Assembly: GCF_900099825.1 (NCBI RefSeq)
Contig: NZ_LT629693.1
Coordinates: 5,901,001-5,965,000, forward strand
From: Bradyrhizobium ottawaense
Lineage (GTDB): Bacteria; Pseudomonadota; Alphaproteobacteria; Rhizobiales; Xanthobacteraceae
Length of the DNA stretch: 64,000 bases
Direction of reading: 5' to 3'
Shown one piece after another: positions 5,924 to 64,000 of this stretch. Under the pieces are notes generated by a model. It had not been told where the DNA came from. It saw only the letters and a list, made by a program, of their open reading frames with translations, and did no database searches. Position 1 is the stretch's first letter, and each line of letters begins with the position of its first letter. The translations under genes and the position numbers were made by a program.

Positions 5924-6241
5924 GTTGTCGGTACTCGCGCGCACAACGATAGACTTGTGAACCCAGTGTCCCGCCCTCGAGTTCCCTGGAAAACACGTAT
6001 CCGCGGCCCGGCGCTGAAGCTTCGTGCAGTAGAAAATACGGGAAGCCCCATGCTCCCTTTCGCCGCGATGCACGGCTCAGGAACCCTTCGCGTCCATACA
6101 CGTTAAGCGACATGACAAGCCCGCGGAAATGGCCCGGCATCCTTCCACCGGTGTCGGGCGTTTTCTCTACGGGCCCGCCTGTCTATTTGCATCACGTAGA
6201 ATTTGATCAACGGTGATCCTAGTCGACGAGGACCCCCTGGG

Positions 6242-6916: not shown

Positions 6917-7267
6917 CAATAAATCCGACCCCCCCTATCACGTCGAGCGACGCCTATTTATTTCGGAGGCTGGAGCCCGGGCGAATTGACCCATTCGCTG
7001 ACATGGGCGGTCGTGTCAGTTTGACTCGCCCTTTTCACGAACGCATCGCGCTCCTTGCCGGGCGGCACGATAAGCGTGGGCGCTTTTCAGATGCGATACG
7101 ACGCCATCCTGGAACCTTTGGTCACACTGCACATTATTGCGCCGCTTGTTGCGCTATTTCATTTCGCCATTTTTGAGGAGACCATTTCTTGATGGACACT
7201 GTGTCGTCGCGCCGACCGCTCAGACGTCGCGCGGGGCGGGCGCGCGGTATATACGAGGGGTAACAGC
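6917..7267. other. Intergenic region, no supported gene
   Basis: I see no convincing coding sequence or RNA gene in these 350 bases. The short open frames here lack family features. A GAGGGG ribosome site near 7252-7258 serves the next gene. Confidence 0.5.
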
Positions 7268-7435
7268 ATGTCCAGCGATCTTGACGATCGTATTCGCAAC
7301 CGCGCGCATCAGCTCTGGGAAGAGAGCGGCCAACCCGAAGGGCGCGAAATGGATTTCTGCCTTCAGGCCGAGAAAGAAATTAGGGAGACCGATCCCCCGC
7401 CAACCAATGCCTCCATGCCTCTCGCCCCTGATTAG
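7268..7435 (+). CDS. DUF2934 small protein
   Basis: The 55-residue protein carries the DUF2934 signature: DRIRNRAHQLWEESGQPEGRE followed by an AEKEI helix (the family pattern is I-R-x-RAxxLWExxGxPEGRDxxxWxxAExE). It starts at ATG 7268 with GAGGGGT 8 bases upstream and ends at TAG 7433-7435. Function is unknown. The family is common in rhizobia, often next to stress genes, and here it precedes a DUF3606 gene in the same direction. Confidence 0.85.
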   Translation: MSSDLDDRIRNRAHQLWEESGQPEGREMDFCLQAEKEIRETDPPPTNASMPLAPD

Positions 7436-7470
7436 AAAGAAACAGGCTCATTTTTCAATTGGAGCTTCTA

Positions 7471-7677
7471 ATGGACCATAAAAAGGAGACGCCGGATCGC
7501 AGCAAGATCAATATGAGCGATCCTCGCGAGCTGAAGTACTGGTGCAAGGCGCTAGAGGCGTCGGAGGAGCAACTTGCGAAGGCAGTCGATAAGGTGGGAA
7601 ATTCGGCTGCGACGGTGCGAAAGGAATTGGCTATGTCCACCAAGCAGGCCGACACCGCCGAAAATGGACGGACGTAG
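7471..7677 (+). CDS. DUF3606 small protein
   Basis: The 68-residue protein has the DUF3606 core: DRSKINMSDPRELKYWCKALEASEEQL, then AVDKVGNSAATVRK. ATG 7471 follows GGAG and is preferred over a TTG four codons earlier. It lies 35 bases after the DUF2934 gene, probably in one transcript. The family is small, predicted helical, of unknown function and frequent in Bradyrhizobium and relatives. Confidence 0.85.
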   Translation: MDHKKETPDRSKINMSDPRELKYWCKALEASEEQLAKAVDKVGNSAATVRKELAMSTKQADTAENGRT

Positions 7678-8559
7678 TCCTGAACTGCAAAGGCGCACTA
7701 CATGCGCTTCCCGCACTTCGAAAATGCCGTTGTTCAGGCGGACCAATCAGTTGGCAGACCGGTCTAAGGTCGCGCCCCGTGTAGGTCCCAGCATCGGGGC
7801 CGAAAGTCGCAGGCACTCGCGCCCCGTGCTGACCAGAATGCTGCTCGGCTGGCGCGAATTGCTGCGGGTCAGCTGGAGCGCGTCCTCGTTAGGTGGCGTC
7901 CAAACGCCAACCAACCCTGATGTCCACCGGCGACCGAAATTGAAGGTTGGCCAGTACTTGGATGAGCCACGATGGATTTCATGAAAGGGATTGGAGGCGA
8001 AACGCCAGTCTTTGGCCGTAGCCCAAATGGTGGGTTTTGGCCTAAGAAGGTCGAAAATGCTTGATCTTTCAATGGGGATTGACTGACACTCTCTCCGCCG
8101 CTGTCCTCATCGCCTTTGTATCCGATCGTTCGAACCGACAACAAAATAACGAGTAGCGCGACAAAGGTTTTGCGGTTAGTTCCGCGATGTTACCCCTGTC
8201 ACCGCGCTAACCGCAGCTTCTGAGCGTGGGGTCGGAGGACGGATTTCGCGAGTGGGGTCAAAGCTCAAGCCGCTCGACGTCGAACGCCGAAATTCGGGAC
8301 GATCTCTACCTCATCGTCTTCAGCGCCCACATCGACTGGAGCTACCGGTACTGGAAGCACGGCAGGCAGTGCTGGCTATGCTTAGGCTCCCACTTGGCTC
8401 CCCTCGAAAGCGCGAGCGCGAAACGAGGAGCATTCGATTTTCTCCGCGCATTCGATCTCGCGCCCTACGAATGACAGCACGCCCTCGACCAGGCAAAGGG
8501 CAACAATCCGTATGTCGGAAGCGGTATCGACGAGGTGATGGATCGGGCGTGGCCGTGGT
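7678..8559. other. Gene-poor stretch, probably decayed
   Basis: Several overlapping short frames occur on both strands but none has recognisable motifs or a persistent coding pattern. The segment ends in the TIR-like pseudogene and is followed by tandem duplications, so it reads as decayed accessory DNA. I see no RNA gene here. Confidence 0.4.
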
Positions 8560-8735
8560 CGTCAAGTTTTATCCCGACGACCTTTTGCAGTTGAAGGAGC
8601 AGTTGCTGAAGCCCGACGATGGCCCGAACGAGCGCGAGCCCTCAGGGCAGGCCGGTCGAACGTGCTGTTCGAGGCTGGGCTGGCGATGGGGCGGCGTCCC
8701 GCCAAGACGGTAATGGTCAGGCCTGTCGGCCATAT
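8560..8735 (+). pseudogene. Remnant of TIR-like (CAP12/PF10137-type) nucleotide-binding protein
   Basis: In one frame the translation reads FYPDDLLQLKEQLLKPDDGPNE. After a one-base shift near 8655 it continues as GRSNVLFEAGLAMGRRPAKTVMV. Both pieces match successive parts of the predicted nucleotide-binding TIR-like domain, whose hallmark is QARxNVLFEAGMAxGRxPxRTxLV. The downstream GRH-containing part is degraded, and no start or stop brackets an intact domain. Known family members act in antiphage signalling, so this is probably a dead defence gene fragment. Assignment rests on short motif recall. Confidence 0.5.
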
Positions 8736-8888
8736 CTCTCGGTTACCGCCGCCGCGACGAACTCTCTGCGTCCGGCGCTGCCCGGGCTTGTGCCATGGGC
8801 GAACAGACAGCAGAGAACGACGGCCCAAACAATGGGGCGTCGCCAGTTGGCTATTGAAAACATGCATCTCGATATTGACTTTCTGCCG

Positions 8889-10681: not shown

Positions 10682-11527
10682 TCAGCGTGATGCGGTCGAG
10701 CGGCTCATGACTTGCTGGATCGTCTTTGTGGCGACGCGGGTATAGAGCGCCGTGGTGTCGAGCTTGGCATGGCCGAGCAGGACCTGGATCACCCGGATAT
10801 CGATGTTCTGCTCGAGCAAGTGAGTGGCGAAGCTGTGCCGCAAGGTGTGGAGCGATACGCGCTTGTCGATCTCGGCTCTATCGGCGGCGGCATGGCATGC
10901 GCGGTTGAGTTGGCGCATCGTCAGTGGGTTCAGCCGGTTCTGTCCCGGAAACAGCCAGCCTTGTGGCCGCGCCAGCTTCCACCAGGCCCGCAGCAGAGCG
11001 AGCAGATGCGGGGACAGCATGACATAGCGATCCTTGCGGCCTTTGCCTTGCTCGACCCGGATCACCATGCGCTGGCTGTCGATGTCGGATACCTTCAGTG
11101 CCACCACTTCAGAAGCACGTAATCCTGCTCCGTAAGCCACGCTCAACGCCGTCTTGTATTTGAGCGATGGTGCCGCATCGAGCAGGCGCGCCACTTCCTC
11201 CGGACTCAGCACCACCGGCAGCTTGCTGGGTTCATGGACGAATGCCGTGCGCTCCACGATATCCGGCCGCCCGAGCGTGACCTTGAAGAAAAACTGCAGC
11301 GTCGAGATGGTCTGGTTGAGAGTAGGAACACCGGCGCCGCTCCCCGCCAAATGGAGCTGGTAGCGACGGAGGTCTTCGAAGTTCGCCGTATCGGGCGAGC
11401 GGCCGAGATAGGCGGCGAAGTTCTTGACCCTTTGAAGGTAGTCATGTTGGGTCTTCGGCGCGAACTTCCGGATCGTCATGTCTTCGATCATGCGCCGGCG
11501 TAACGGGCTCATTGCCTGGTCGGTCAT
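10682..11527 (-). CDS. Tyrosine recombinase of the IS91-associated type
   Basis: The 281-residue integrase has an N-terminal SAM-like core-binding domain (residues about 10-95, MTIRKFAPKTQHDYLQRVKNF). The catalytic domain retains the pentad: Arg in AYGAGLRASE, His/Arg in HTLRHSFAT, His in LLGHAKL, and Tyr in TTALYTRV. This subfamily normally precedes an IS91-type rolling-circle transposase, but none is present here. The gene is therefore solitary or a remnant of an IS91-like unit. All catalytic residues are intact, so it may still be active. Confidence 0.85.
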   Translation of the reverse strand: MTDQAMSPLRRRMIEDMTIRKFAPKTQHDYLQRVKNFAAYLGRSPDTANFEDLRRYQLHLAGSGAGVPTLNQTISTLQFFFKVTLGRPDIVERTAFVHEPSKLPVVLSPEEVARLLDAAPSLKYKTALSVAYGAGLRASEVVALKVSDIDSQRMVIRVEQGKGRKDRYVMLSPHLLALLRAWWKLARPQGWLFPGQNRLNPLTMRQLNRACHAAADRAEIDKRVSLHTLRHSFATHLLEQNIDIRVIQVLLGHAKLDTTALYTRVATKTIQQVMSRSTASR

Positions 11528-51328: not shown

Positions 51329-51706
51329 TTATTTCGTTCGGGTGACCGTCGCTTTAAAATTGGCGTCAACTGTTATCGTAGTAACTGTTGGCAGCCCGAA
51401 TAGCAGGGGGTCATCCCGGAAAAGCCGCTCGAACCGAATAAATTCTCCGCCCACCGTGCCGGCAGGCGTACCGAAATAGGATACGCGCTGCGAAGAAAGA
51501 ATCATTGCGCGCCTTCGGGCAATCTCGACTACTGCACCGTTAGCGCATGTTCCATCTAGTGCTCTTAATCCAGGGCATCGTTGGGTTTGAGCCGAGACGA
51601 CAGAAGACGCGGCGACCCACAACACGGTGGTCAGGACGAGACATTCAAGCAATCGCCGTGCCCGCTGCATGCGCGAGGCCCCTTCCATCTTTTTAGAATT
51701 GACCAT
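51329..51706 (-). CDS. Small exported protein, unknown
   Basis: The 125-residue protein has a basic N-terminus and hydrophobic segment LLECLVLTTVLWVAASSVVS cleaved near AQTQ. The mature part starts RCPGLRALDGTCANGAVVEI and ends with a TVTTITVDANFKATVTRTK strand pair. Starts at 51706, 51688 or 51670 are possible. It overlaps the end of the broken outer-membrane gene by 14 bases, suggesting a former operon. Confidence 0.5.
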   Translation of the reverse strand: MVNSKKMEGASRMQRARRLLECLVLTTVLWVAASSVVSAQTQRCPGLRALDGTCANGAVVEIARRRAMILSSQRVSYFGTPAGTVGGEFIRFERLFRDDPLLFGLPTVTTITVDANFKATVTRTK

Positions 51707-52480
51707 GAGCAGCTAATCCTCCTGACCAACCGGTATAATGAAGGCCTGGCGGCTCCAGCATTCGTTCGCTCACGAACTGTGCGGGAAAGCCAAATTTCTG
51801 AAATTCGACAGGCAGAAACGGACCATCTTGCTGCACCACCCAAAAATGAGCCAGTCGAAAATCAAACTTCAATTTATCGGTGGCTGCGTATGCGAGCGCG
51901 ATACCCGCGGACTGCTTGAGCTTGGCGGGTACAAACTGCTCTTGCACAGCATCGTAAGAATTGGCGTTTCTATATAGCAAGCTATAGTTTACTCCCACTT
52001 TGAAACGGTTTGTCACCATGTAATTGGGCTGCGCGGATAGGATGAATACATTGCTGTTGGAGTTTTTGAGTTCGTCGACGAGCGAACCGAGTACCGGATC
52101 TGCCACTTTATCGCGCCCGAGATAGCTCCACGACAGGTTGCCTTCAAAGTTCCAGCGGTCGTTGATCCCGTAAACGGCCACGGCGTTGGCGACGAACCGA
52201 TTGCCCTTCCGGCCCACTGGGGCTCCATTCTGCAACAGGTCGGTCTGCCATGTATGCAAAGGATCCGGCAATCGTGAGGTTTTGTATTGCTGTTGTGATC
52301 GTGCCGTTAGCGGTGAATGTATCGCCGGGCTTGACGCGCTCCATCGCGTCGAAGATCCCTGTCGTAAGATCGACTGCCTCTCGCGTGCCGGACTTGAGCC
52401 CCATGACATGGGGCACGCTCCGTTCCCACATCAGGAGGTTGCCGTCGAAACCTAGACCGTAGCTTACCCCGACGGGCGAA
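51693..52480 (-). pseudogene. Broken outer-membrane beta-barrel protein (SphA/phenol-MetA-like)
   Basis: Two frames carry consecutive parts of one barrel protein. Frame 1 reads VGVSYGLGFDGNLLMWERS...VKPGDTFTANGTITTAIQNLTIAGSFAYM. After about 52245 the sequence continues one frame over as TDLLQNGAPVGRKGNRFVAN through alternating hydrophobic strands to a terminal phenylalanine (HGQF). The N-terminal half of the gene is missing: the frame runs into the tRNA-like end and the island repeat at 52547. Family assignment is by barrel pattern and modest motif recall. It was probably a hydrophobic-compound porin. Confidence 0.6.
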
Positions 52481-52526
52481 CGCGCGGCAAGCCGCGCAGG
52501 GGATGCACCAGCACCCGCAGGCTTTC

Positions 52527-52555
52527 CGCAGGTTCGAATCGTATCGGGCGCGCCA
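52527..52555 (+). other. tRNA-like 3' end (T-loop and acceptor/CCA)
   Basis: GGTTCGAATC followed by a CGGGCGCGCCA terminus matches the T-loop plus acceptor-CCA end of tRNA-Arg-like genes (expected 5' partner GCGCCCG is absent). The T-stem is imperfect. It is probably the tRNA fragment carried by an integrating element rather than a working tRNA. Confidence 0.45.
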
Positions 52556-52585
52556 AATTGCCACCATTCAGAATAAAACCGCGAA
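52547..52585. repeat. Left 39-bp direct repeat of the Wadjet island (att-like)
   Basis: It starts GGCGCGCCAAATTGCCACCA at 52547 and differs from the copy at 61890-61928 by one base (52580). It overlaps the CCA end of the tRNA-like sequence and stops 9 bases short of the jetD stop codon. Confidence 0.85.
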
Positions 52586-52593
52586 CCCGGTTA

Positions 52594-53871
52594 CTATGCG
52601 GCCCTGAGATCCTTCAACAATGAAGCGGCTAGAGCTTCTTCAGCTATGGAGAGTTCATGTCGCTGCATGGCCGTCATCAACCCTTCGTCCCAAAGGGCGC
52701 GGGCAGCCTTTCCCGTGAGAGCCTGTCCAAGACCTGAGGCCCCTTCGACGGCGGCCTCGTAGTCGCTCGCCCCAAAGCGCCAGGGTTGGGCGCCGTGCTC
52801 GCACATGACGTGGTTGCCGATCCGCACTCCCGGCCAATCGAAATCGCCATGATAGAAAAGCTGCGCCCGCGCTTTAGCCAGTTGCGACAGCAGGCATCGC
52901 TGTGCTGCGGCGGGCATGCCGTCAGTGCAGACTAGCGGCGCGCAATCGGAGCCCCAGTGATCCGCGGCGATCGCGACCAGGTTGGGATTCTCACAGACAT
53001 AGACCCTGCAATCCGCCACGTCCCACGACGGTGGAGAGCGCAACAGCGACCGCAGCGAAGCGTAAACTGGTTCTCCCGGCGACTGGTAATTTCCCGCGTC
53101 GCGCACGGGAAGGTTCAGGAACAGCACCGGGCGCGCCAATTCATTGACCAGCACGCCGGCCTTGGCCCAGACGTCGCGATCGCGCTCAGCACCACCGCCC
53201 AGCTCCAGTTCGCCGTCTCCCGTCGGCTCGCTATCGACGTCATCATTGCTGTAATCAGTCCGAGCGATTACCTGACGCCAGACCGTCAGTGCCAAGGTTG
53301 CCGTGGGCTGTCCGCTGTCGAGCGCGTGGGCGTCGCCCAGCACGTCGGCTGCCAATTGCGAACGTGTGATGCCGCTCGCGGGCAGGCGCTGCAATACTGC
53401 TTCGACACGGCGACAGAGTTGGAGCGCCGCCGGTGGGCTCTGTCGTGCAAGGCGCTTGAGAAGCCCGATGCCCGCCGGGGCCTGGAGCAGTCCGATCAGT
53501 TCGCGGTGAGTGCAGCCGCCCAGCACATCCGACCACATCGTTTGCAGCTCAAGGCGCGTCGTGGCGAGATTCGCAATCGGGCCATCGAGTTGTTCAAGTG
53601 CGTCGCGCAGCGAAGCGGCGATGCCGGCATTCTGGAAGGCGGTATCGATGAGGCGAACGTCGACCTGTAAAGAATTGGTGTAACGGAGCGGACGACCGAG
53701 TAGAGAAGCCAGTGCGGCATGTTCCTCCGCGGTGAGCTTGCCGATGCGAAAGTTTTCAACCGTGGCGTCGAGCGGTGCCCGTTCGAAACGCTGACGCAGG
53801 CGCTTGCGCAGCAAGGCGTAACGGTCACCGCCAAGCAGGCGTTGCAGGCGTGGGTCGGTCGAAGAAATCAT
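52594..53871 (-). CDS. jetD: Wadjet JetD, TOPRIM-like nuclease subunit (type III)
   Basis: The 425-residue protein starts at ATG 53871, overlapping the jetC stop by ATGA; a longer in-frame start is ignored. The C-terminal region has the topoisomerase VI/TOPRIM-like DUF2399 signature FYHGDFDWPGVRI (Asp343, Asp345) and WRFGASDYEAA. The N-terminal part is the DUF3323-type (TIGR02679) region. In characterised Wadjet systems JetD cleaves circular DNA once JetABC has extruded it. It is the last gene of the operon. Confidence 0.9.
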   Translation of the reverse strand: MISSTDPRLQRLLGGDRYALLRKRLRQRFERAPLDATVENFRIGKLTAEEHAALASLLGRPLRYTNSLQVDVRLIDTAFQNAGIAASLRDALEQLDGPIANLATTRLELQTMWSDVLGGCTHRELIGLLQAPAGIGLLKRLARQSPPAALQLCRRVEAVLQRLPASGITRSQLAADVLGDAHALDSGQPTATLALTVWRQVIARTDYSNDDVDSEPTGDGELELGGGAERDRDVWAKAGVLVNELARPVLFLNLPVRDAGNYQSPGEPVYASLRSLLRSPPSWDVADCRVYVCENPNLVAIAADHWGSDCAPLVCTDGMPAAAQRCLLSQLAKARAQLFYHGDFDWPGVRIGNHVMCEHGAQPWRFGASDYEAAVEGASGLGQALTGKAARALWDEGLMTAMQRHELSIAEEALAASLLKDLRAA

Positions 53872-56800
53872 GTCGGCGCAAACCTGCGATCTGGATCGTC
53901 TTCGCGTGTCTTGGCGCGACCGTCCCAGCTCCAACGCGACACGAACACCGCGTCGATGCCTTCACGCCGCTGCAACTGGCAAATGGCGACGCCGGGCAGT
54001 TCGGCATAGCAGGCCCACTCACGCTCACTGGTGATGACGAAGTCGAGATCGAACTCGCGGATCAGCCCCATGCAATGGGCGCGTGCGGTATCATCGATGC
54101 CGGCGAACGCTTCATCGAGTAGCATCAGGCGCGGCGCCAGCGCGTAACTGCCCTGACTGTAGAAACTGGCGACCGCGGCGAACAGCGGCACGGTGAGGCC
54201 GAGCGCCCGCTCTCCGCTGGAGGCCGGACCGGAGAGTTTGCGCCAGTGCCCGTCCTGCCAGCGCTCGACGCGAAAGCGGTGCCAGCGGCGATAGTCCAGC
54301 GCGCGGGCGAGTTGCTCGATCAGGCTGCCGCCCACATCCTTTCCGGTGCCCGAATCGGCGCGCTCGCGCTCGGCGGCGATGCGCTGCTGCAACATCGCGC
54401 CGACCACTCTCCGGTCGTCAGCGGACCAAAGGTCTGCACTGGTGTTGAGTAGGCGTTTGCGCGCTGCTTCGAGGCCGACCGGAGCACCTTCTTCTTCCGC
54501 CAGCGGCTGCCAAAGCAGACGATAGCGTACCCCGGTGGATGTCGGGCGATCGTGCAATTCTCTATTGATCGCATCGCGCTGAGTTTCGGCCGCCTGCAGC
54601 AGGCGCTGCACTTCGGAGGCGATTTCGGCCTGCAGATGGTTCTCCAGCACCGCGCGCTCGTTCGCCGTCAGCAGTTCACTGCGCTGGGCAATCTCTTCGG
54701 CGAGGCGCGCGGCAAGGCGGTCCGGCGGTTCGGGTCGGTTCTGATAGACGACGCGGACGATAAGCCCCCAATCGCTCTGTTCTGCGTGCGCCTGGTGGCC
54801 GAGTGCGCTGAGGGCGCGTTGCAGCTCCGTCAGGTCTTCGCCGATCTGCCGTTGCAGGCGTGTCCAGGCGTCGTCGTCGTCCTTGAGTTCGGATAAGGCC
54901 TGTTCCGCGCGGCGAGCCAGAGTAAGCGCGGGGTCGATCGTCCACGGGCCGCCCATGTCAGGCAGGTCGGCTTGGGGTAGCGCAGCCGCGAGCAGGCCGG
55001 TGGCCGAAAAGTGCTGGAACTTCGCGATCGCTTCGGCGCGCGCGTCGCTGCGTTGTCCGAACACAGTGCTCGCAGTCGCTGCCTGTTCGTGCGCGACCGC
55101 GCGCACCTCGCCGGATTTGCTTAGGACGTCGCGCGCGAGCGTTAGTGCGGAATTGCTGGCCTCGACGGCGGTGCCGGCATCGGCCAGCCGCCGTTGCAGC
55201 GCCTCGACCCTGGTGCCGACGGATCCGCGCAACACCTCGAACCGGACGGCGGCTTCTCCCGCCTCAATGCGGGCAGCCGCAAATTGTTCATCCTGCTTCT
55301 TCAGATCGTCGCGGGTTTCGTTCTCGCGGTTGCGTTGCCGCTGCAACTCGGGCAGCGCCAGACGCACCTCGTGAACAGCCTGGGTGAGGCGGAGTTGGGC
55401 ATCGTGATAGTGGTTCAACGCCATCTCGACCGCCGGCAATTCGGCTGATAATGCGGGAAGGCGCAGATCGACGGCGTCGGCGGCGAGTCGTTGCCGCACC
55501 GTCTGCAGGGCTTGTGCGGCCTCTTGGTATCGAAGATCGGCCTCGCTCAATTGCTGGCGGGCGGTCCGGGCCTCGCGCGCACTGGCGGCCGCAGCAAGAT
55601 GGGCGTTGCGCAACGCCTCTTCGAAGGGAACCAGACGCCATTCATCGGCGGCTTGGTCCTGATCGCGCGTGAGTTGCGCGTCCATCGCCTGGATCGCAAT
55701 GAGTTCATCGGCGATTTGTATTAGGCGGCCGGCCACGTCGGCCAGTCGCTGCTTGCGGGCCGCGGCGCGGGCCGCACGGCCGATATAGACCGCCGCCGGT
55801 TTGGCCCAGGCTCCGACCAGCGCGGCAAGCCGAAAGCGACCGTCGGGGGCGACCCAAGCTTCGCTGTCCGCGGGATCGTCGTCGGTGCAGGCGATGCCGG
55901 ACAGCAGGCGTTCGACGAGCGCGGCCGGTACGGCGCTATCGGCGGGCGTGTCAGCGTGCAGCCAACCAACGAGCGAGAGCTCATGCGACCGTCGCTGCAG
56001 CATCTGGGTGTCGTGCAACAACTCCACTCCGTCGCCGGCCTGCAGGTGGCCGTCGGGCGAGACCCATGCGTCGAGCAGGCCGGCGGCTTCAAGCGCGGCC
56101 TCGAGGCCGGCGCGCTGAGCGGCCGTGACCTCTTCGCGAAAATCGACCAATTGCCAGAGCGGCGCACCCTCGCGTGCACCTCTGGCATCGGCGCTACGCG
56201 TATGCGGGTGGGGCGGCGTCGCATCGACGCCGGCTTCGAGACGGCGGCGTTCGTCTTCGAGGGTGTTGAGCTCTGTCTCCAGCGTCTGGCGTTGGCCGTC
56301 GAGCAACACGCGACGCTGCGCCAGACGCAGGCTGGCGTGCTGCTGCGCCGTTTGCACGCAATGTCGCGCCGGATTGTCGCCATCCAGCCCAGCAACCCAG
56401 TCGGCGAGGGCCGTGAGCGCTGCGCGGCTGTCGTCGTGGCTGACCTGCAGTTGCTTCAGGCTGGCGAAGTAGCGCTCCCATGCCTGAATCAGGTTGCTGC
56501 CCTCGTGATCGACTTCCGTATCGGCTTGCTCGCGTCGTTTTGCCGTGGCCTCTACGGTGCCCTGTCTTTCTTCACGCGTGTTCTGGCATCGTGTATGCAG
56601 GGCTTCGGCCTCCGTCACCTCGGCATGTCGTCGCCGCAACAATGCGATCTGTTCGCGTCGATCAACGATCAAGGTACGAAGGTCGCCGCATGCATTGTCG
56701 AAGGCTTGTGGCGTCAATGCGACCAGATCGGCGGCGGCGAGCGTTGCGAGCGGGCTACCGGCGTGCAGGCCGGCGATACCTGCCGCCTCGGCATGCGTCG

Positions 56801-58046
56801 CGCTGTTCTGACGCAACTTCGTCATCACACGTTCGGCTTGCGTCATGCGCTGGACGGCGTGCCCGGTCTCCTCAGTGCTGCGCTTTAATCGCCGTCGCAC
56901 CTCATCGACCGCCGCGGTGGCGACTTGCAGCGCATGCTGCCGCGCCAAAGCGTCCCGCTCGGCGGATTCGAGACGGTTCGCGTCCTGCATGGTCGGGTCG
57001 GCGCGCAGTATATCAAGCCGAGCCTGCTCGCGCTTGAGCGCAAGTTCCGCGTCGTCGTGAGTTATCCGGGCGAGCGCTTCCGCGGTCTCGGCCGTCTCGA
57101 GCCGTGCCTGCGCATCGGCGCGCGCCCGGCTTGCGCTGTCGAACTCGGTCTGGGCCTGGCGCAGCGCGCGGGCCTGCCGCCGGCTCTGGGTGCCGGCGTA
57201 GATCCGGTAGCGCTGGTCGAAGCGCTCGACGGCTCTTGCCAGCGCCTGGTATTCTTCGAGTTGGCGGCGATCTTCCTCCAACTGGCCCAGAGCCTCGGCG
57301 ACGTCCCCAAGCAGTTCGGGTGCGAGCGGCGGCAAGGCCTCGGTGAGTGCGTCCGAGAGCGCGGTTTCGTCGGGCTTTTTCGACAATTGCGGCTGACGCA
57401 ACTGAATCAGCGTATCCATCAAGGCGTCGTAACGCCTGGTGCCGAGGTGGAACAATCGCTCATCGACCGCGCGCCGGTAGCTGACGGCGGTATCGAACAC
57501 CTGGCCGCGGCCGTGCAGCGCGTCGCGCAGGCGTTCCCGGGTCAGGACCACGCGCTGATCGCTCATCAGCCAGATATCCTGATTGATGCGCGGAGCGCCA
57601 ATGGAATCCTCCAGCACGAAGAACCAGCTGTCCACCTGGGGACGCGCAGCGACCGCGGCAAGCCCGGCGCCGAGTGTGAGGTAATGCGGCGTTCCGTCGT
57701 CGGCGAGGCGGCCGAATTCGATCCAGGCGTAGCCGATGCGCCGGTCATAGCTGCCCATCAACAGATTCCAGGACATCTTCTTGCCGCTGTCGCCGTCAGG
57801 TTCGATGCGCGAGGACTTGAGCTGTGCATCGAGCAAGAAGGGCAGCGTCAGCGACAGCACCTTGGATTTGCCGGTGCCGTTGTTGCCCCGCAGCAGCAGA
57901 TGCCCGTCGCGAAACCAGAACTCCTCGCTGTCGTAGTGAAACAGCTCCACCAGTCCAAGGCGCAAAGGCTGCCAGCGTTGCCGCGTCGGGATCGGCAGCG
58001 CGGGTCTCTCGGAGAGTGCAGCAAATGAAGCCGGCCGGTCGTTCAT
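53868..58046 (-). CDS. jetC: Wadjet JetC, SMC/MukB-like ATPase (type III)
   Basis: The 1392-residue protein belongs to the TIGR02680 group. Walker A RGNNGTGKSK is at 53-62. Long coiled coils fill about 280-480 and 780-1080, with a hinge-like segment between (PHPHTRSADARGAREGAPLWQ...). ABC signature is LSGPASSGERALGL and Walker B LMLLDEAFAGIDD (1307 on). It forms the loop-extruding motor with JetA and JetB. It overlaps jetB and jetD by ATGA. All ATPase motifs look intact. Confidence 0.93.
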   Translation of the reverse strand: MNDRPASFAALSERPALPIPTRQRWQPLRLGLVELFHYDSEEFWFRDGHLLLRGNNGTGKSKVLSLTLPFLLDAQLKSSRIEPDGDSGKKMSWNLLMGSYDRRIGYAWIEFGRLADDGTPHYLTLGAGLAAVAARPQVDSWFFVLEDSIGAPRINQDIWLMSDQRVVLTRERLRDALHGRGQVFDTAVSYRRAVDERLFHLGTRRYDALMDTLIQLRQPQLSKKPDETALSDALTEALPPLAPELLGDVAEALGQLEEDRRQLEEYQALARAVERFDQRYRIYAGTQSRRQARALRQAQTEFDSASRARADAQARLETAETAEALARITHDDAELALKREQARLDILRADPTMQDANRLESAERDALARQHALQVATAAVDEVRRRLKRSTEETGHAVQRMTQAERVMTKLRQNSATHAEAAGIAGLHAGSPLATLAAADLVALTPQAFDNACGDLRTLIVDRREQIALLRRRHAEVTEAEALHTRCQNTREERQGTVEATAKRREQADTEVDHEGSNLIQAWERYFASLKQLQVSHDDSRAALTALADWVAGLDGDNPARHCVQTAQQHASLRLAQRRVLLDGQRQTLETELNTLEDERRRLEAGVDATPPHPHTRSADARGAREGAPLWQLVDFREEVTAAQRAGLEAALEAAGLLDAWVSPDGHLQAGDGVELLHDTQMLQRRSHELSLVGWLHADTPADSAVPAALVERLLSGIACTDDDPADSEAWVAPDGRFRLAALVGAWAKPAAVYIGRAARAAARKQRLADVAGRLIQIADELIAIQAMDAQLTRDQDQAADEWRLVPFEEALRNAHLAAAASAREARTARQQLSEADLRYQEAAQALQTVRQRLAADAVDLRLPALSAELPAVEMALNHYHDAQLRLTQAVHEVRLALPELQRQRNRENETRDDLKKQDEQFAAARIEAGEAAVRFEVLRGSVGTRVEALQRRLADAGTAVEASNSALTLARDVLSKSGEVRAVAHEQAATASTVFGQRSDARAEAIAKFQHFSATGLLAAALPQADLPDMGGPWTIDPALTLARRAEQALSELKDDDDAWTRLQRQIGEDLTELQRALSALGHQAHAEQSDWGLIVRVVYQNRPEPPDRLAARLAEEIAQRSELLTANERAVLENHLQAEIASEVQRLLQAAETQRDAINRELHDRPTSTGVRYRLLWQPLAEEEGAPVGLEAARKRLLNTSADLWSADDRRVVGAMLQQRIAAERERADSGTGKDVGGSLIEQLARALDYRRWHRFRVERWQDGHWRKLSGPASSGERALGLTVPLFAAVASFYSQGSYALAPRLMLLDEAFAGIDDTARAHCMGLIREFDLDFVITSEREWACYAELPGVAICQLQRREGIDAVFVSRWSWDGRAKTREDDPDRRFAPT

Positions 58047-59359
58047 GTCGGACCGACCAGGGCATTGTCAACCGCGGTCGGTACGCCGCGTGTTTCACGA
58101 AAGTTGCGGACTTCGGCATCGCCGAGCGCGAAACGGGCGAGCGCCGGGCGCGGGTAGACCGTCTCGGCATCTCGCACTATCAGTTGAAGCTTTTCCAGCC
58201 GATCAAGGGCGATCTCGGCAAGCTCGCGTTCGGCGCCGGGTTCACGCGCAGATTTGCGCCAATATTTGCCATAGCGGGGCTTGCTCTCGCGCAGGTAATC
58301 GACGACGTCTTGTTCCCTGATCACACCAGAGAATGGTTGGGTCGCGCCAGCGGGATCCGTCTGCCGCTGCCTGTAAACGGTGGCCAGGAACTCCGCGACC
58401 AGCAGCGTGACATGGGCATCGGTGCCTTCGGCGGGCATCGCCACATCTGTCAGCGAGCCAGCCTCATCGACCAGCGCCAGACCTTCGGCGCGTTGCTCCG
58501 CGACCAGGCCGGTTGCGTCGGACAGGCGGGCCGCCATGGCGCCACGCTGGTTGACAAAATAGGCCCGGGACTCCGCGTCTAGTGTGTCGGTATAGACTAC
58601 CGGATCGTCGAGCAGCCGCCGTGCCAGTTGGCGGCGCAGAACAGTGCGTCGGCCCTCATCGCTGTCAGCCACATGCTCGTCGGCCAAGGCATGTAGTCGC
58701 TGGTCGAGCGTGACCGGCGCATCCTCCGGCCGGAAAGTCGACGGCCCGCGCACGGCGGCCAGCATACCGGCGAGCGCGCGGCGCTGCACGTCGTAGAGCG
58801 CATCGGCCTGATCGCCCCCGGCATGCACGAAGGCGTCTTCGTCGCCGGCGATACGCTGCAGCACGCCCAATTCGAGCAAGGTGCGGCAGACCGCCACCAG
58901 TTCACGCCGCTCGTGAGGAGCGCCGAGCGTGAAGCCGAAGCCGGAAGCCGTCAGCGTCGGTTCGGCGGCGAATTGCAGCAGCCGCTCACCCAGCAGTCGC
59001 AACGTGATCTGCGGGTCGGCGCGTTCGAGCACCGCGCAAGCCAAGCACAGCAGCACGTAACGGCGGCGATCATAAAATGGCAAGCCGCGCATCGTGCTGG
59101 CGAGGTCCGCCGGCCGCTTATAAAGTCGAGCACCCTCTTGTTCGACGTGCAGCGCCCAGCCGGTTTCGCGCCCAAACCAGTCGCGCAGTGCGTCGGCCTG
59201 ACGGCGGATCGCCGGAAAATCGTCGTGGTCCGGACTCATCAGCGGTGTCATCAGCAGGGCGCGCACGGCGCTGCGAAATTCCTCGTTCTGGAACCGACGC
59301 TGTTGCTGGTCGATGCTGCGGCTGTCCCTACCAACGCTGGCGGCCATCGGCTGTCTCAT
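58043..59359 (-). CDS. jetB: Wadjet JetB, MukE-like subunit (type III)
   Basis: The 438-residue protein is of the DUF2398/TIGR02678 group: QQQRRFQNEEFRSAVRALLM at the start, PLMSPDHDDFPAIRRQADAL, RRRYVLLCLACAVLERADPQ, and HVTLLVAEFLATVYRQR later. It corresponds to MukE-like kite proteins and, with JetA, clamps JetC heads. Overlaps jetA and jetC by ATGA, indicating translational coupling of all four subunits. Confidence 0.9.
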   Translation of the reverse strand: MRQPMAASVGRDSRSIDQQQRRFQNEEFRSAVRALLMTPLMSPDHDDFPAIRRQADALRDWFGRETGWALHVEQEGARLYKRPADLASTMRGLPFYDRRRYVLLCLACAVLERADPQITLRLLGERLLQFAAEPTLTASGFGFTLGAPHERRELVAVCRTLLELGVLQRIAGDEDAFVHAGGDQADALYDVQRRALAGMLAAVRGPSTFRPEDAPVTLDQRLHALADEHVADSDEGRRTVLRRQLARRLLDDPVVYTDTLDAESRAYFVNQRGAMAARLSDATGLVAEQRAEGLALVDEAGSLTDVAMPAEGTDAHVTLLVAEFLATVYRQRQTDPAGATQPFSGVIREQDVVDYLRESKPRYGKYWRKSAREPGAERELAEIALDRLEKLQLIVRDAETVYPRPALARFALGDAEVRNFRETRGVPTAVDNALVGPT

Positions 59360-60864
59360 GTCGGCGTGATAGTGATCAAATGGTCGCGCCCTGCAAATAC
59401 GCCCCGCGGCGTACTGATCACAGCGCGGCTATCGACTGCGAGTGGCGTGAGGTTGATATGCAATAATCCGTCGCCGGTTCGCCGTTCGGCGCTAGTGTTC
59501 GGACCGGCCTGTTCGGTCAGCACCTCACCGAGCAATCCCAGGAACAGACCGAAGGCATGGATGTCCAGCTCGTCGAGATCTGAAAGGCGTGTGGGCTTAC
59601 CGGTGGCGAGGTGCTTGCGCGCCGCCTCGACCTGCAGCGACTCCTCGGCGAGTTCGCGCGCCAGATGTGCGCGGGCCTCACCGCGATCACGCACCCGGGG
59701 CATCGCGCCGCGCGGCGCGGCCTCACCGTATTCGCGTAGCCGCGGGTGAATCGTCAGCGGTGGCGCGTCGGCCCAGCGTGTCGAGGCCGGTAGATCGGCG
59801 TCGGCGTCGGGATTCAGCGAGAAATGTCGTGCCGGGTTGAGCGCGAAGGCTGCGCGCGCCAACCGGTGCGCCTCGCCGTCGTTGCCGCAGGCAGCGAACC
59901 AGCCGGCGAGCATGCGGAAATCCGCGGAACGGTCGCTGCGCCCGCTGCGGCGCTCGTTGAGCGCGGCGATCGCTCCCAGCAATTGCGGAATTGCCGACCG
60001 TGCCCTCGCCCGCAACAGTTCGGCTTGCGAGGGTTCGTGGCCGGTACGGAAGAACCAGCCGCGCAGACCTCTCCAGCGTTCGCGCCAAGCATTCAAGTGA
60101 AGGGTCCGCGCGTCGGCCCGATCCTCCGCATCGCCGGGGGCTGCATCGCGTGCATCGCGCGCGGCGACCTGCTGCAGTAATGCGTCAATGCTCGGTTCCA
60201 GGGCGAGGATATGTCTGGCGATGGTGTCGGAGCGGCGCACCAGATCGCCCATGAACCGCTCCAAATAGTCGATCAGCTGGCGTTTGTAATTCGCCACCGC
60301 AATCGCCTCGGCATGCTGCAACTCGATGCTGCGCGCGACGCCCGCCATGAAAGCCTGCGCATTTTCAGCAAGACCCTCGAAAACGCGGACCAAATCCCGC
60401 AGTGTTTCGTGGATCTTCGCGACGTCGGCTTCGGTTTCGTCAGCCAGCGTTTGAAGCGCCTGCAACCGGTTCGCTATGTCTTCAAGCGCGACCGTTTGCA
60501 GTTCGGCGCGCCGTTGCAGTGTTTGCACGAAAAGCACCAGCGCCGCTTCGACAGCCTCCCCGCCCTGCGAGAGACGATACAGGAAGCGTGCGCGGTAGAA
60601 ATCGCTGAGGCTGGAAACCCGCGCCGTGTCAGGATGCGACTCAAGATTGCCCCAGGCGGCAAGCTGGGCGAGCGCGGTGTTGACGTCTTCGATGCGGGGC
60701 GGAGTGTCAGGCCAACGGGCTTCGGCAAGCACCTCGTCGGGTCGGAGCTGCAGGCGATATTGCCGTTTGGCCGCGGCGAAGACATCCATGATGCAGCGGT
60801 AGAAAGCGGCTTTCTCGGCACTCACATGCCTGAACAGCTCGGCTGAATCGCTCACGGCTCGCAT
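59356..60864 (-). CDS. jetA: Wadjet JetA, kleisin/MukF-like subunit (type III)
   Basis: The 502-residue protein is of the DUF2397/TIGR02677 group. It starts MRAVSDSAELFRHVSAEKAA at 60864, contains FYRCIMDVFAAAKRQYRLQL and SDFYRARFLYRLSQGGEAVEA, has long helices in the middle, and ends ITITPT. A 32-residue upstream extension in the frame is dropped because it is not conserved-looking. First gene of the jet operon, 137 bases after vapC. A GGGAAA stretch serves as a weak ribosome site. Confidence 0.9.
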   Translation of the reverse strand: MRAVSDSAELFRHVSAEKAAFYRCIMDVFAAAKRQYRLQLRPDEVLAEARWPDTPPRIEDVNTALAQLAAWGNLESHPDTARVSSLSDFYRARFLYRLSQGGEAVEAALVLFVQTLQRRAELQTVALEDIANRLQALQTLADETEADVAKIHETLRDLVRVFEGLAENAQAFMAGVARSIELQHAEAIAVANYKRQLIDYLERFMGDLVRRSDTIARHILALEPSIDALLQQVAARDARDAAPGDAEDRADARTLHLNAWRERWRGLRGWFFRTGHEPSQAELLRARARSAIPQLLGAIAALNERRSGRSDRSADFRMLAGWFAACGNDGEAHRLARAAFALNPARHFSLNPDADADLPASTRWADAPPLTIHPRLREYGEAAPRGAMPRVRDRGEARAHLARELAEESLQVEAARKHLATGKPTRLSDLDELDIHAFGLFLGLLGEVLTEQAGPNTSAERRTGDGLLHINLTPLAVDSRAVISTPRGVFAGRDHLITITPT

Positions 60865-61001
60865 GGGCTTTTTCCCAAGGGTCTGCCACTGGAATTGCCA
60901 GTTCGCACGATATGTTAATGCATTTGCCCGTTCGCTGCAGCCATATTGGATTACGTCCACGGTTCCGGGGGTGTGCGCGGCCGAGATGCACTTTGCTTCG
61001 G

Positions 61002-61400
61002 TCAGACCCAGTTCTCAGCCCTGATCCCTGGCATGCGCACAAACTCGCGCATGTTGTTGGTGACGATGATCAACCCTTCGCTGCGTGCGTGACCGCCGAT
61101 CTGCATGTCGTGCGGGCCGCAGGGCGTTCCCGCACGTTCCAGCTCCGCTCGAATCTGGCCGTAGTGCGCCGCCGCTTTGGCCTCGAACGACAACACTTCG
61201 AGACGCGCCATGAAATGTTCAATGGCCGTCAGGTTCTCGATGCGACTTGCTGATTTCTCCGCACCATAGTGCAACTCGCCGAGTGTGATGCTCGAGATGC
61301 AGAGTTGCTCGGCCAGTGAATTGAATTTCTCCCGTAGGTTCAACGGATAATTCTTCATCACATATATACAGATATTGGTGTCGAGCATGTAGGTGAGCAT
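61002..61400 (-). CDS. vapC: VapC PIN-domain toxin
   Basis: The 132-residue PIN ribonuclease has the acidic residues in MLDTNICIYVM (Asp7), SITLGELHYGAEKS (Glu42), GPHDMQIGGHARSEG (Asp) and a TNN motif (IIVTNNMREFVRMPG). It starts at ATG 61400, overlapping the vapB stop by one base (TGATG). It cleaves RNA when free; VapB neutralises it. Transcribed toward jetA and lying inside the repeat-bounded island, it may stabilise the island. Confidence 0.92.
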   Translation of the reverse strand: MLTYMLDTNICIYVMKNYPLNLREKFNSLAEQLCISSITLGELHYGAEKSASRIENLTAIEHFMARLEVLSFEAKAAAHYGQIRAELERAGTPCGPHDMQIGGHARSEGLIIVTNNMREFVRMPGIRAENWV

Positions 61401-61633
61401 CAGAGCGGCTCGCGCTCCTCGGCCGGTGGCTGCTCGCGCTCGGCCATGAAATCCTCACTCGCGCGTGGACCGTTCTGAAACAGATCGTCCCACCGTTTGC
61501 CCTGCGGCACAATCACTCGGCTGCGACCGATCTTCAAAATATCGACCTGATGCACGTCCTCCGGAAAGGCGACGGCCTTGGGCAGTCGCACGGCCTGGCT
61601 GCGATTGCTGGTAAACACCGTGGAGCTTGTCAT
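61400..61633 (-). CDS. vapB: VapB antitoxin (AbrB/MazE-type)
   Basis: The 77-residue antitoxin has a swapped-hairpin AbrB-like DNA-binding N-terminus (STVFTSNRSQAVRLPKAVAF, then VDILKIGRSRVIVPQG) and an acidic C-terminal tail (ASEDFMAEREQPPAEEREPL) for VapC binding. The operator is probably the palindrome at 61646-61672, just upstream. Confidence 0.92.
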   Translation of the reverse strand: MTSSTVFTSNRSQAVRLPKAVAFPEDVHQVDILKIGRSRVIVPQGKRWDDLFQNGPRASEDFMAEREQPPAEEREPL

Positions 61634-61645
61634 GGTGTCCTCCCC

Positions 61646-61672
61646 TATGTATATCCAATTGGGATATACATA
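61646..61672. promoter_or_regulatory. Perfect 11-bp inverted repeat, likely VapBC operator
   Basis: TATGTATATCC (61646-61656), AATTG, GGATATACATA (61662-61672), 13 bases upstream of the vapB ATG. Position and symmetry fit a VapB-VapC autorepression site. Confidence 0.75.
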
Positions 61673-61875
61673 TATGAGCTGTTGTATTTTGCAAGGGGCG
61701 CTTAAGGGTCGGGTTGTTGGGCCTGCAATGGCTCTCAGGCGATTTGTTGTGAGATATCGGGTCCGTGCGATTTGTTATTCGGTGAGGTTAGTCACTTCGA
61801 ACGCCCCCTCAAGCGCTGCACGATAATCAGGGCGTCATTAATTACAATGTAATTTCAATGACATAAGGGTTCGCT

Positions 61876-61922
61876 GTTTTATTCTGAATGGCGCGCCAAA
61901 TTGCCACCATTCAGAATAAAAC
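61876..61922. repeat. 16-bp perfect inverted repeat at the right island boundary
   Basis: GTTTTATTCTGAATGG (61876-61891) and CCATTCAGAATAAAAC (61907-61922) flank a 15-base centre. The right arm is part of the 39-bp island repeat; the left arm is its inverse copy and is absent at the left boundary. Confidence 0.7.
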
Positions 61923-61928
61923 TGCGAA
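61890..61928. repeat. Right 39-bp direct repeat of the Wadjet island (att-like)
   Basis: Matches 52547-52585 in the same orientation with a single difference (61923). Together they bound a 9.3-kb unit holding only vapBC and jetABCD. Confidence 0.85.
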
Positions 61929-62094
61929 TCCTGCGCGGATGTGGTTCGCGGTTTAGCCCGATGCGGCGAAGGTCGCGTCGCTGAAAGCATTCGCGGCGGG
62001 AGGATATCTCGCCGTCTAAACCAGGCTTTGGATGTCGCATCGGGTATCAAGCTATAGGCTGCAAGATACCCGGTACGCGCGATTTGCGTCGCTC
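61929..62094. other. Spacer between island and HigBA
   Basis: No supported gene; possible downstream region of the higBA transcript. Confidence 0.35.
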
Positions 62095-62391
62095 TCACGC
62101 CGCCTCGTAAGACGCAATCTTCCTGATCTGCGGCGCGAGCACCTCTTCGGCCGTTTCGAGATCGAAGCGCGCCTGAATGTTCATCCAGAACGCAGCGCCG
62201 GTCTTGAAGTACTTGCCGAGCCGCAGCGCGGTGTCGGCCGTAACGGGCTTTTCTTCGCGCGCGATGCGTTCGATCCGGGTGCGCGGCACGTTTAGCGCGG
62301 CCGCGACCGCGTAGGGTGTCAGCTTGAGCGGAACGAGAAATTCTTCCCGCAGGATTTCGCCGGGATGAATCGGCGGAAGTTTCTTTGCCAT
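62095..62391 (-). CDS. higA: HigA-type antitoxin (Xre family)
   Basis: The 98-residue antitoxin is IHPGEILREEFLVPLKLTPYAV followed by an HTH (AAALNVPRTRIERIAREEKP, VTADTALRLGKYFKTGAAFW) and MNIQARFDLETAEE, all canonical HigA. An ATG at 62391 marks the usual start, but the frame is open upstream into HigB without a stop, so HigA may also be made as the C-terminal half of a fusion. Confidence 0.9.
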   Translation of the reverse strand: MAKKLPPIHPGEILREEFLVPLKLTPYAVAAALNVPRTRIERIAREEKPVTADTALRLGKYFKTGAAFWMNIQARFDLETAEEVLAPQIRKIASYEAA

Positions 62392-62715
62392 GCGATTTCC
62401 TATTCGGCGGCCACATTCGGCCGGGTCTGGCGAGTGATAGTCGATTATCTCCACGTCTTCGGGACCCGCATCGGTCCACTTGAATACGACCCGCCATTGA
62501 TCGTTGATGCGGATAGAGTGCCTACCGGCCAAATCGCCCTTAAGAGCTTCAAGGTGGTTGCCGGGTGGCGAGTTCAAGGCCTCAAGAAAGGCGGCGGCGT
62601 CCACCATAATCAGTTTCCGGCGCGCTACCCTGGCGAGATTTGCCGGGAAACCCTTCGGGACCATGCGGCCCTGAAGGATCGGCTCGGCAAATTTCCCCTT
62701 GAAGCTCCTGATCAT
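62095..62715 (-). CDS. higB: HigB toxin fused in frame to HigA
   Basis: From ATG 62715 residues 1-94 form a RelE/HigB-type mRNA interferase (MIRSFKGKFAEPILQGRMVP, LEALNSPPGNHLEALKGDLA, HSIRINDQWRVVFKW, VEIIDYH). HigB proteins normally end just after the VEIVDYH strand. Here the frame continues through a 14-residue linker (SPDPAECGRRIGNR) into the HigA start methionine, giving a 206-residue toxin-antitoxin fusion. The catalytic-region residues of HigB look intact. Confidence 0.75.
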   Translation of the reverse strand: MIRSFKGKFAEPILQGRMVPKGFPANLARVARRKLIMVDAAAFLEALNSPPGNHLEALKGDLAGRHSIRINDQWRVVFKWTDAGPEDVEIIDYHSPDPAECGRRIGNRMAKKLPPIHPGEILREEFLVPLKLTPYAVAAALNVPRTRIERIAREEKPVTADTALRLGKYFKTGAAFWMNIQARFDLETAEEVLAPQIRKIASYEAA

Positions 62716-62881
62716 GGGCGCAACGTATCCCATCAGGATACTCATTGCAAGACCTTCGTATCTCGATGAGATACCACTGGCGACGCCAAGGGCGCCGATT
62801 TTGTGAGTGGATATCGCCGGCTCTGAAAGGAACGAGGCCAACTCCCGGCTATCATTGCAAATGATTCGCGGAGGCGCCTCG
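62716..62881. other. Divergent intergenic region
   Basis: Promoter region between higBA (minus) and the HEAT-like gene (plus). ATCTCGATGAGAT near 62759-62771 is a short palindrome that could bind HigA. Confidence 0.4.
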
Positions 62882-64000
62882 ATGAGCCGAGCCCAGACAA
62901 AATCCTCGCCGACGGATGAGCATGCGAGACGGATCGCGCAGGCGATCGCCAAGGGGCGGCCGCCCCCATTCAATGATGCCCTCGAGCGGTACTGCGAAAG
63001 CTCCCCACGCGAAATTTTTGCCGCTTTCACGGGCGCGGCTCGCCACATGCCTCCGGCCGGTGACGATGAGCCGCTTGCGATCGGTTATCTGTTTCTGCTG
63101 CAGCGGCTGCTGGAGCATCTACGTTATCGCACCGATCGGGGCTACGCGGACGCAAGCCAGCTGATCGCGGATTTTCAGGCGGACGTCGTCGCGCAAGTCG
63201 AGGCAGGAAACGTCGATGGGCGCATGCTCGATTTCGTGGGAGGAGCCCTGCATCAGTCGAAAATCCCCACATCGCCGGAGTTTGCCGCGGCGTTGGCAAA
63301 GCAGCCCGTCGATCGGGACGAGGACGGACCGCTTCCGGCCGACGTCCACGGCGCTCTCGCCGGCATCCTGGATGCCTGCGACGGCGATCCGTTCATGACC
63401 GTCGGAGCGCTAACGGAAAGCGGTCATTCCATGCCGGAGGACGCCCGCGGCGCTCTGGCCGGCGCCTTGGCGCTTGCTGGTATCCCCAAAGCGCGCAGCG
63501 CCGCGGTTCTGTTCCTGCTCGATCCAAATTCGACGGTGCGTCGCGCGGTTGCCGGAGCGCTTGCGCAGGTCGGCGCCTCGCTGACGCCGACAGAGGTTCG
63601 GCGGTTGATCGCGATGCGCAACTGGCGACCCGAGAACGAGCGAACCGAAGTCGACGCGATCATCCGCAAGGCGCGGGCGGCTGGGATCGATTGCGCGCCA
63701 TGGGAGGCGGGCAGCGTCGAGGCAATCGTCGCTACGACCGTCGATGGCGCCGCAACGCAGGGATTCCTGCTGATATCCCCGGTCGGACGGAAAAAGCGGA
63801 TCTCGTCGGTCCTGACCAAAGGCGGGATTGCGGATGCCTGGAGCGGCGAGCCGGAATCGCGCCGCCAGATCGAGATGAGCCTCGCCGCCGCCGGGATGGA
63901 AGCCCCTACGCTTGCCGTATCCCGTTCCTATCTCGACCGTTCCGTGGCGCACCATCTGGCGCTCAGCATCGAGAAACGGGAAGCGCCGCCGTTCGGCCTG
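62882..64000 (+). CDS. HEAT-repeat-like protein, cut by window end
   Basis: The open frame runs from ATG 62882 (GGAGG seven bases upstream) to the right edge without a stop: 373 visible residues. An N-terminal segment ARRIAQAIAKGRPPPFNDAL is followed by helical pairs. DPNSTVRRAVAGALAQVGAS matches a HEAT-type repeat, and LTPTEVRRLIAMRNWRPENE follows. A further domain begins near TTVDGAATQGFLLISPVGRK. I do not recognise the full family; it is probably a soluble scaffold. Confidence 0.6.
   Translation, partial: MSRAQTKSSPTDEHARRIAQAIAKGRPPPFNDALERYCESSPREIFAAFTGAARHMPPAGDDEPLAIGYLFLLQRLLEHLRYRTDRGYADASQLIADFQADVVAQVEAGNVDGRMLDFVGGALHQSKIPTSPEFAAALAKQPVDRDEDGPLPADVHGALAGILDACDGDPFMTVGALTESGHSMPEDARGALAGALALAGIPKARSAAVLFLLDPNSTVRRAVAGALAQVGASLTPTEVRRLIAMRNWRPENERTEVDAIIRKARAAGIDCAPWEAGSVEAIVATTVDGAATQGFLLISPVGRKKRISSVLTKGGIADAWSGEPESRRQIEMSLAAAGMEAPTLAVSRSYLDRSVAHHLALSIEKREAPPFGL

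Follow-up and report, generated by a model that had tools for sequence, protein, structure and literature searches.

Gene content and boundaries of the Wadjet cassette

The stretch of DNA analysed here (64,000 nucleotides, chromosome positions 5901001-5965000 of Bradyrhizobium ottawaense; hereafter the window) carries towards its right end a jetABCD operon that, as judged from its sequence, is a Wadjet defence system of type II, accompanied by a vapBC toxin-antitoxin pair (Table 1). All four Jet proteins match the PADLOC type II models. An initial annotation had placed these genes in an island that lacks an integrase, is bounded by two direct copies of a 39-bp repeat, lies at a tRNA-Arg-like end, and might be mobilized in trans. 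The repeat is real, since its copies are identical in 38 of 39 bases and their first 33 bases, which are exact in both, were present in 0 of 100 shuffles. As described, vapBC and the four jet genes lie between the copies, none of the 24 tyrosine-recombinase matches of the whole genome falls between them, and the left copy ends 9 bases from the jetD stop. The tRNA-like end was confirmed as well, but only as a short remnant of 27 nt that is identical in up to 26 positions to the 3' ends of tRNA-Arg(CCG) genes and remnants; neither ARAGORN nor Rfam called a tRNA in this region.

What did not hold is the interpretation of the two direct copies as both ends of one island, because each of them is the left end of a cassette, the two cassettes standing in tandem. 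The right boundary had been set at the second direct copy, whereas the Wadjet cassette closes at an inverted site, termed R, which includes an inverted copy of the repeat (61866-61891) overlooked in the initial annotation. Cassette 1, with Wadjet and vapBC, extends from 52547 to 61898 and overlaps the left (L) site of cassette 2, which extends from 61890 to 64627 and lies mostly inside the window.

Across the 8.34-Mb chromosome the arm sequence of the repeat has 14 matches (0 for the reversed pattern), which form clusters of 7 and 6 and one single copy. Besides the two repeat copies and the inverted copy, these comprise 11 more sites, of which three lie shortly beyond the window. Some arm copies are solitary and others are paired face to face around a 15-bp centre; such inverted arms near a nearly palindromic core suggest an attachment site for a site-specific recombinase. 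Scattering of the 39-mer without relation to cargo had been named as an observation that would speak against an island; the site is indeed scattered, yet at the ends of cargo.

Table 1. Features in and near the window, and related blocks elsewhere in the source genome. Positions refer to the window unless preceded by G000:C1.
Feature	Position	Strand	Basis
tRNA-Arg(CCG) 3'-end remnant, 27 nt, target; last bases GGCGCGCCA = core	52529..52555	+	Matches to tRNA-Arg(CCG) ends; no full tRNA
L site of cassette 1 (first 39-bp copy)	52547..52585	+	Repeat comparison, L model
jetD (DUF3323 + DUF2399)	52594..53934	-	Pfam; JetD2 model
jetC (SbcC Walker B)	53868..58046	-	Pfam; JetC2 model
jetB (DUF2398)	58043..59359	-	Pfam; JetB2 model
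jetA (DUF2397)	59356..60960	-	Pfam; JetA2 model
vapC-like PIN toxin, variable module	61002..61400	-	Pfam
vapB-like antitoxin (MazE family), variable module	61400..61633	-	Pfam
R site, true right end of cassette 1, 56 bp	61843..61898	-	R model
R-core-L palindrome, junction of cassettes 1 and 2	61866..61932	.	26-nt arms, 92% complementary, 15 nt apart
L site of cassette 2 (second 39-bp copy)	61890..61928	+	Repeat comparison, L model
Cassette 2 cargo: single frame, HigB-like toxin + HigA-like helix-turn-helix (HTH)	62095..63048	-	HTH below Pfam cut-off
Cassette 2 cargo: start of 557-aa frame, continues past window	62807..64000	+	Weak HEAT match below cut-off
R site of cassette 2, outside window	64572-64627		R model
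NAD-glutamate dehydrogenase block	G000:C1:4424221-4429826		Counterparts L296, L297, L301, L306, L308
Nine-copy tyrosine recombinase	G000:C1:2421727, 3676870, 5794740, 6363941, 7109268, 5911727 (window 10727-11212), 5982148, 6003719, 7856905		

Two site types at tRNA 3' ends

A scan with exact patterns over one genome per species returned 53 stretches, 50 of which are alphaproteobacterial by title (mostly Bradyrhizobium, Afipia, and Tardiphaga); the remaining three have no core and look like chance matches. When aligned, the stretches sort into two asymmetric site types. The R site (56 bp; 40 sequences) consists of the core TGGCGCGCC, directly followed by ATTCAGAATAAAACTGCGAACTC and a second conserved block, and its arm is conserved across genera. 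In the L site (approximately 39 bp; 25 sequences) the core is followed by a spacer of approximately 8 bp and then by the same arm as in R. The core corresponds to the 3' end of tRNA-Arg(ACG), tRNA-Arg(CCG), and tRNA-Glu(CTC), all of which end in G-N-G-C-[G/A]-C-C-A. Arrays are ordered as tRNA, L, cargo, R, and core, which may be followed by further units of L, cargo, and R, and the junction between two cassettes is an R-core-L palindrome. An R-type site was present 3' of an intact target tRNA in 14 of 28 tRNA loci examined (which include some places sampled twice), and its orientation to the tRNA was the standard one in 13 of these 14.

Two R sites can also stand back to back and share one core (L021 871-972 and L114 7971-8072). 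These R-core-R junctions suggest that the palindromic core is sometimes recombined the wrong way round.

Distribution and cargo of the cassettes

Matches to the R model occur in 38 of 60 sampled genomes of the genus, the source genome included, with up to 15 per genome if L arms are counted. Of six genomes from which loci were chosen, full R sites are present in five, and G061 has an arm only. In 22 loci, 32 cassettes of 1.1-14.6 kb could be delimited; gene calls within them are mechanical open frames, and these extend to near the sites. The expectation that the same sites enclose other cargo elsewhere was borne out in other genomes. Pfam searches covered 40 of the 102 cassette proteins of at least 170 aa in the main batch, and four more proteins in separate runs. 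Of the 40, 31 gave a match and nine gave none. The cargo recognized includes EAL/GGDEF proteins, UPF0182 (three cassettes), MipZ, proline racemase, a molybdopterin-binding enzyme, ethylbenzene-dehydrogenase-like proteins, transporters, an amidase, a subtilase with an AAA ATPase, LTXXQ, and a TOTE protein. Neither an integrase nor transfer genes were recognized among these 40 proteins.

Several cargo units deserve mention in their own right. A cassette at tRNA-Arg(ACG) (L105 3715-7453) holds subtilase and AAA ATPase genes only and is possibly an unstudied conflict module. A TOTE-type primase-helicase gene and a 557-aa gene, the one that ends cassette 2 here, travel together (L062 2391-4874, L102 6620-9103). 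The UPF0182 membrane protein forms a recurrent 3.1-kb cassette in several genomes (L100 11662-14766, L104 11643-14763, L117 near 5570-8847, L302 13731-16847, L296 8172-9200). In cassette 2 itself, the HigB-like toxin and the HigA-like HTH region are read as one 317-aa frame, and left of the tRNA remnant (51693-52567) overlapping frames resemble, by eye, frameshifted pieces of one outer-membrane-type gene.

The Wadjet cassette in other genomes

JetB relatives were found in 22 genomes, five of which (48% identical) were covered only as loci of approximately 4.3 kb. Among 242 genomes, six others encode a JetB that is at least 96% identical, and all six contain the Wadjet cassette with 94-96% identity over 8.4 kb and the same ends. 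The cassette occupies three loci: five genomes share one beside a decayed tRNA-Arg fragment, G207 has a second, and the source genome a third. The 1.5-kb flanks of these loci gave no alignment between loci. The L arm is unrecognizable in G207, and one base has been lost from the R site in G028. Wadjet relatives at 75-77% in G088 and G077 are likewise flanked by L and R, at loci other than these three, and in Tardiphaga G060 a 0.8-kb Wadjet remnant is kept between the two sites; a stretch of 276 bp is common to the left neighbour of this remnant and cassette 2 of the window, the only flank match found between loci. The vapBC pair, which the initial annotation had counted as part of the island, is present here and in G088, but is missing from the other full-length Wadjet cassettes compared, including the six that are 94-96% identical, and is a variable module.

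Empty sites had also been anticipated. Loci with and without a cassette do exist at tRNA-Glu(CTC) (see below), but none is clean for the Wadjet locus: its left flank has matches in 12 of 235 other genomes that are just 27-41 bp long, and no clean unoccupied site was found among the matches listed for the locus shared by five genomes. The same was true among the matches listed when the right flank of L116 was compared with 30 tRNA-Glu loci. In plasmids, JetA relatives were found only at less than 60% identity (17 records).

Other cassettes at changing tRNA loci

A 7.6-kb cassette with acyl-CoA synthetase and ABC-transporter genes follows an intact tRNA-Arg(ACG) in the source genome and an intact tRNA-Glu(CTC) in G023. 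The two copies are 92% identical over 7475 bp, and no similarity was found between their flanks, either upstream or downstream. One Tardiphaga and one Bradyrhizobium share a TOTE primase-helicase cassette of 4.6 kb, with 90% identity along its entire length. At the tRNA-Arg(ACG) locus of G015 the upstream flank is homologous (84% over 1178 bp), but a different cassette, of 4.1 kb, is present.

NAD-glutamate dehydrogenase (GDH) appears to travel as a cassette too. Adjoining the tRNA-Arg(ACG) array of the source genome is a block of 5.6 kb from core to R site with Pfam matches to GDH_C and Bac_GDH_CD. In G139, G100, G144, and G010 the alignment of this block starts no more than 25 bp from the core and reaches the R core; in further genomes it is aligned over most of its length, some of them having no recognized R site. 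The block directly follows an intact tRNA-Arg(CCG) in G139 and G049, an intact tRNA-Glu(CTC) in G007, tRNA remnants in several genomes, and R sites in the source genome, G004, G114, and G203. At tRNA-Glu(CTC), GDH comes straight after the tRNA in G007, whereas in G114 a 3.1-kb UPF0182 cassette and its R site stand between them; in G007 the UPF0182 gene comes after the GDH cassette, and the order is swapped relative to G114. Cassette 2 of the window has its R-side half alone in common with the cassettes of L062 and L102 (1.85 kb, 90-91%), which indicates that recombination inside cassettes occurs.

Search for the recombinase

The two arrays of the source genome contain none of its 24 tyrosine-recombinase matches. 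No intact integrase was detected in the 32 delimited cassettes with a local profile, which was built from 16 domains of the source genome and may miss distant types. An integrase fragment occurs in L101, and a DUF6538 fragment (L016 3713-4675) is found shortly past the right edge of the window, in the block that follows cassette 2 on that side. The integrases found near arrays are of several types. The DUF6538 fragment and the integrases in L044 (after tRNA-Leu) and L060 were rejected as candidates because they are not tied to the R/L arms. The same applies to an Arm-DNA-bind_3 integrase of two Afipia genomes that is frameshifted in the source genome: its copies in three places (L284 5402-6990, L285 6473-8062, L286 9284-10880) align together with approximately 230 bp upstream, including a tRNA-Arg(CCG) 3' fragment, and are otherwise in unrelated surroundings. 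The two Afipia copies have no adjoining R/L sites, and the copy of the source genome has one R site approximately 8 kb away. An integrase of the L042 type stands by tRNA-Glu(CTC) in L315 and is broken in L313; it too is not tied to the R/L arms, and the L315 element, of approximately 12.5 kb and with an 18-bp repeat, has another far arm. Nor is a tyrosine recombinase family with nine copies (L073-L078, L081-L083), which are 76-100% identical in compared pairs and have no R-model match beside them. The R sites may instead be served by a recombinase encoded elsewhere.

Interpretation and rival explanations

Comparison of sequences reveals two site types, a fixed orientation to the tRNA, co-terminal cassettes that recur at separate loci and behind different tRNAs, a locus where a cassette is present in one genome and absent from another, and swapped cassette order. 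Taken together these features argue, with a probability that we put at roughly 75%, for the Wadjet block being a member of a family of site-specific mobile cassettes without integrase. A cassette circle would carry a joined site composed of the R arm, the core, and the L start. A recombinase encoded elsewhere would recombine the joined site with the core that closes a tRNA gene or remnant whose 3' end reads G-C-G-C-C-A, and the product would read tRNA, core, L, cargo, R, core, and old flank, with the tRNA rebuilt. Because the core would be restored beside the tRNA, later cassettes could insert ahead of earlier ones and the array would grow in one orientation, with the R-core-L palindrome as the scar where two of them meet. 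The circle, the recombinase with its supply in trans, and a route from cell to cell go beyond what the sequences show, and we infer them. Of the initial proposal we retain that a compact, integrase-free defence passenger sits at the 3' end of a tRNA; since no recombinase could be tied to the R/L sites, its mobilization in trans is something that we infer.

A number of observations weigh against this interpretation. Eight of ten less similar Wadjet relatives (G042, G203, G228, G161, G221, G155, G010, G024) have no sites within 18-20 kb, and Wadjet is therefore not dependent on the cassette vehicle. A recognizable L arm starts just 12 of the 32 delimited cassettes, from which it follows that this arm may be dispensable or decayed. 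In L045 an R-like arm comes directly after the tRNA, the exception to the standard orientation, and L023, although counted among the 13 regular loci, holds a second R site in the opposite sense. No candidate recombinase is tied to the R/L arms, no cassette circle was observed, and two of the 32 cassettes contain an integrase fragment.

The last point fits a decay of autonomous parents, which is the main rival. According to this explanation the cassettes are ordinary islands that have lost their own integrase and now move only in cis, when an integrase-bearing island integrates adjacent to them at the same core. In several passengers (L042, L060, L021, and, beyond the window, L016) the R core is indeed closely followed by an integrase or a fragment of one, and a broken integrase opens a 7.7-kb stretch from tRNA to R in G037. 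However, the integrases next to the passengers belong to several unrelated types, and the bounded element in L315 has a different far arm, whereas the R arm itself is conserved across genera; moreover, single cassettes, and not pairs alone, recur at new tRNAs. We regard decay as unlikely, but as deserving serious consideration. A fully autonomous tRNA island (integrative and conjugative element, ICE; integrative and mobilizable element, IME; or prophage) was rejected, as no integrase is present in the Wadjet cassette and the local profile detected no intact one in the 32 cassettes. A prophage or phage satellite was likewise set aside after three exact-pattern scans of viral contigs, which divergent sites would escape, yielded 0 stretches.

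Exchange of cassettes by ordinary homologous recombination between the repeated sites, with no site-specific enzyme, has in its favour that cassette 2 shares only one half with L062 and L102. It appears improbable as a general explanation, as the same cassette is found at tRNA-Arg(ACG) and tRNA-Glu(CTC), whose 3' ends share only approximately 6-9 bases at the junction and whose flanks are unalignable. The inverted arms, the palindromes, and the many genomic copies could also recall the ends of a transposon or of a miniature palindromic element that contacts tRNAs by accident. Yet L and R differ, the targets are tRNA 3' ends, cargo stops at the core in unrelated loci, and no transposase was noticed between the sites; the targets, the asymmetry, and the co-terminal cargo led us to reject a transposon, miniature inverted-repeat transposable element, or repetitive extragenic palindrome, any of which we consider highly improbable.

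It is conceivable, although we would place it somewhat below even odds, that Bradyrhizobium, Afipia, and Tardiphaga possess a separate integron-like cassette system, in which an unlinked, dedicated recombinase has the conserved R site and tRNA-Arg or tRNA-Glu 3' ends as its substrates. It would circulate, as single cassettes in ordered arrays, not only defence systems (Wadjet, TOTE) and toxin-antitoxin pairs but also transporters and core enzymes (such as NAD-glutamate dehydrogenase and UPF0182).

Comparison with known systems and significance

Integron cassettes are small, have a conserved site at one end, and form tandem arrays of one orientation and changing order at one anchor. The cassettes described here are also small, with a conserved site at one end, tandem, in one orientation, at one anchor, and variable in order, but the anchor is a tRNA 3' end and the cassettes can comprise multiple genes and up to 14.6 kb. 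A search with PF00589, the one model that bore on an integron integrase, found no tyrosine recombinase in the arrays of the source genome; it did not extend to attC-type sites.

Nearest in kind are cis-mobilizable elements (CIMEs) and the tandem ssrA islands of Dehalococcoides. CIMEs are described as decayed ICEs or IMEs that have no integration genes, keep attL and attR, and can occur one behind another at a shared target, for instance the 3' end of a tRNA (PMC5704250). The Wadjet cassette resembles them in keeping its L and R sites with no integrase between them; it differs in that the cassettes here mostly look like small, self-contained gene sets with varied cargo and an R site shared across genera. 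The ssrA islands form arrays downstream of one RNA gene and are separated by repeats of its 3' end; 15 of them lack an integration module and 16 have one, with a serine recombinase beside attL, and a conserved motif lies upstream of the repeats (PMC3146451). Arrays at one RNA gene, with members that lack an integration module, are common to both systems, whereas no resident recombinase was found here, three tRNA genes and remnants serve as targets, and the inverted arms are long. In Bradyrhizobium japonicum USDA110 and USDA6, tRNA islands with duplicated 3' ends have been reported, among them a 2.9-kb island at trnR-ACG listed without an integrase; in the accessible text no sequence similarity between islands except for one pair, and no common end site, is reported (PMC3927601). 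The cassettes here, in contrast, share a common end site. No paper containing the three site-letter strings or describing such cassette arrays was found in the literature within reach, which mostly excluded subscription journals.

As a type II system this Wadjet is itself ordinary, and the vehicle is its distinguishing point: a Wadjet system can now be assigned a precisely bounded vehicle without an integrase of its own. Island finders that rely on an integrase or a tRNA would tend to miss such cassettes, since these have no integrase and often no adjoining intact tRNA. With the R site as a simple sequence probe, the boundaries of cassettes, the history of arrays, and the missing recombinase become open to direct tests. 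Genes for defence, for transport, and even for basic metabolism seem to circulate in much the same way as integron cassettes do; in a large group of bacteria from soil and plants, a defence system or even a core metabolic gene may move as a single block.

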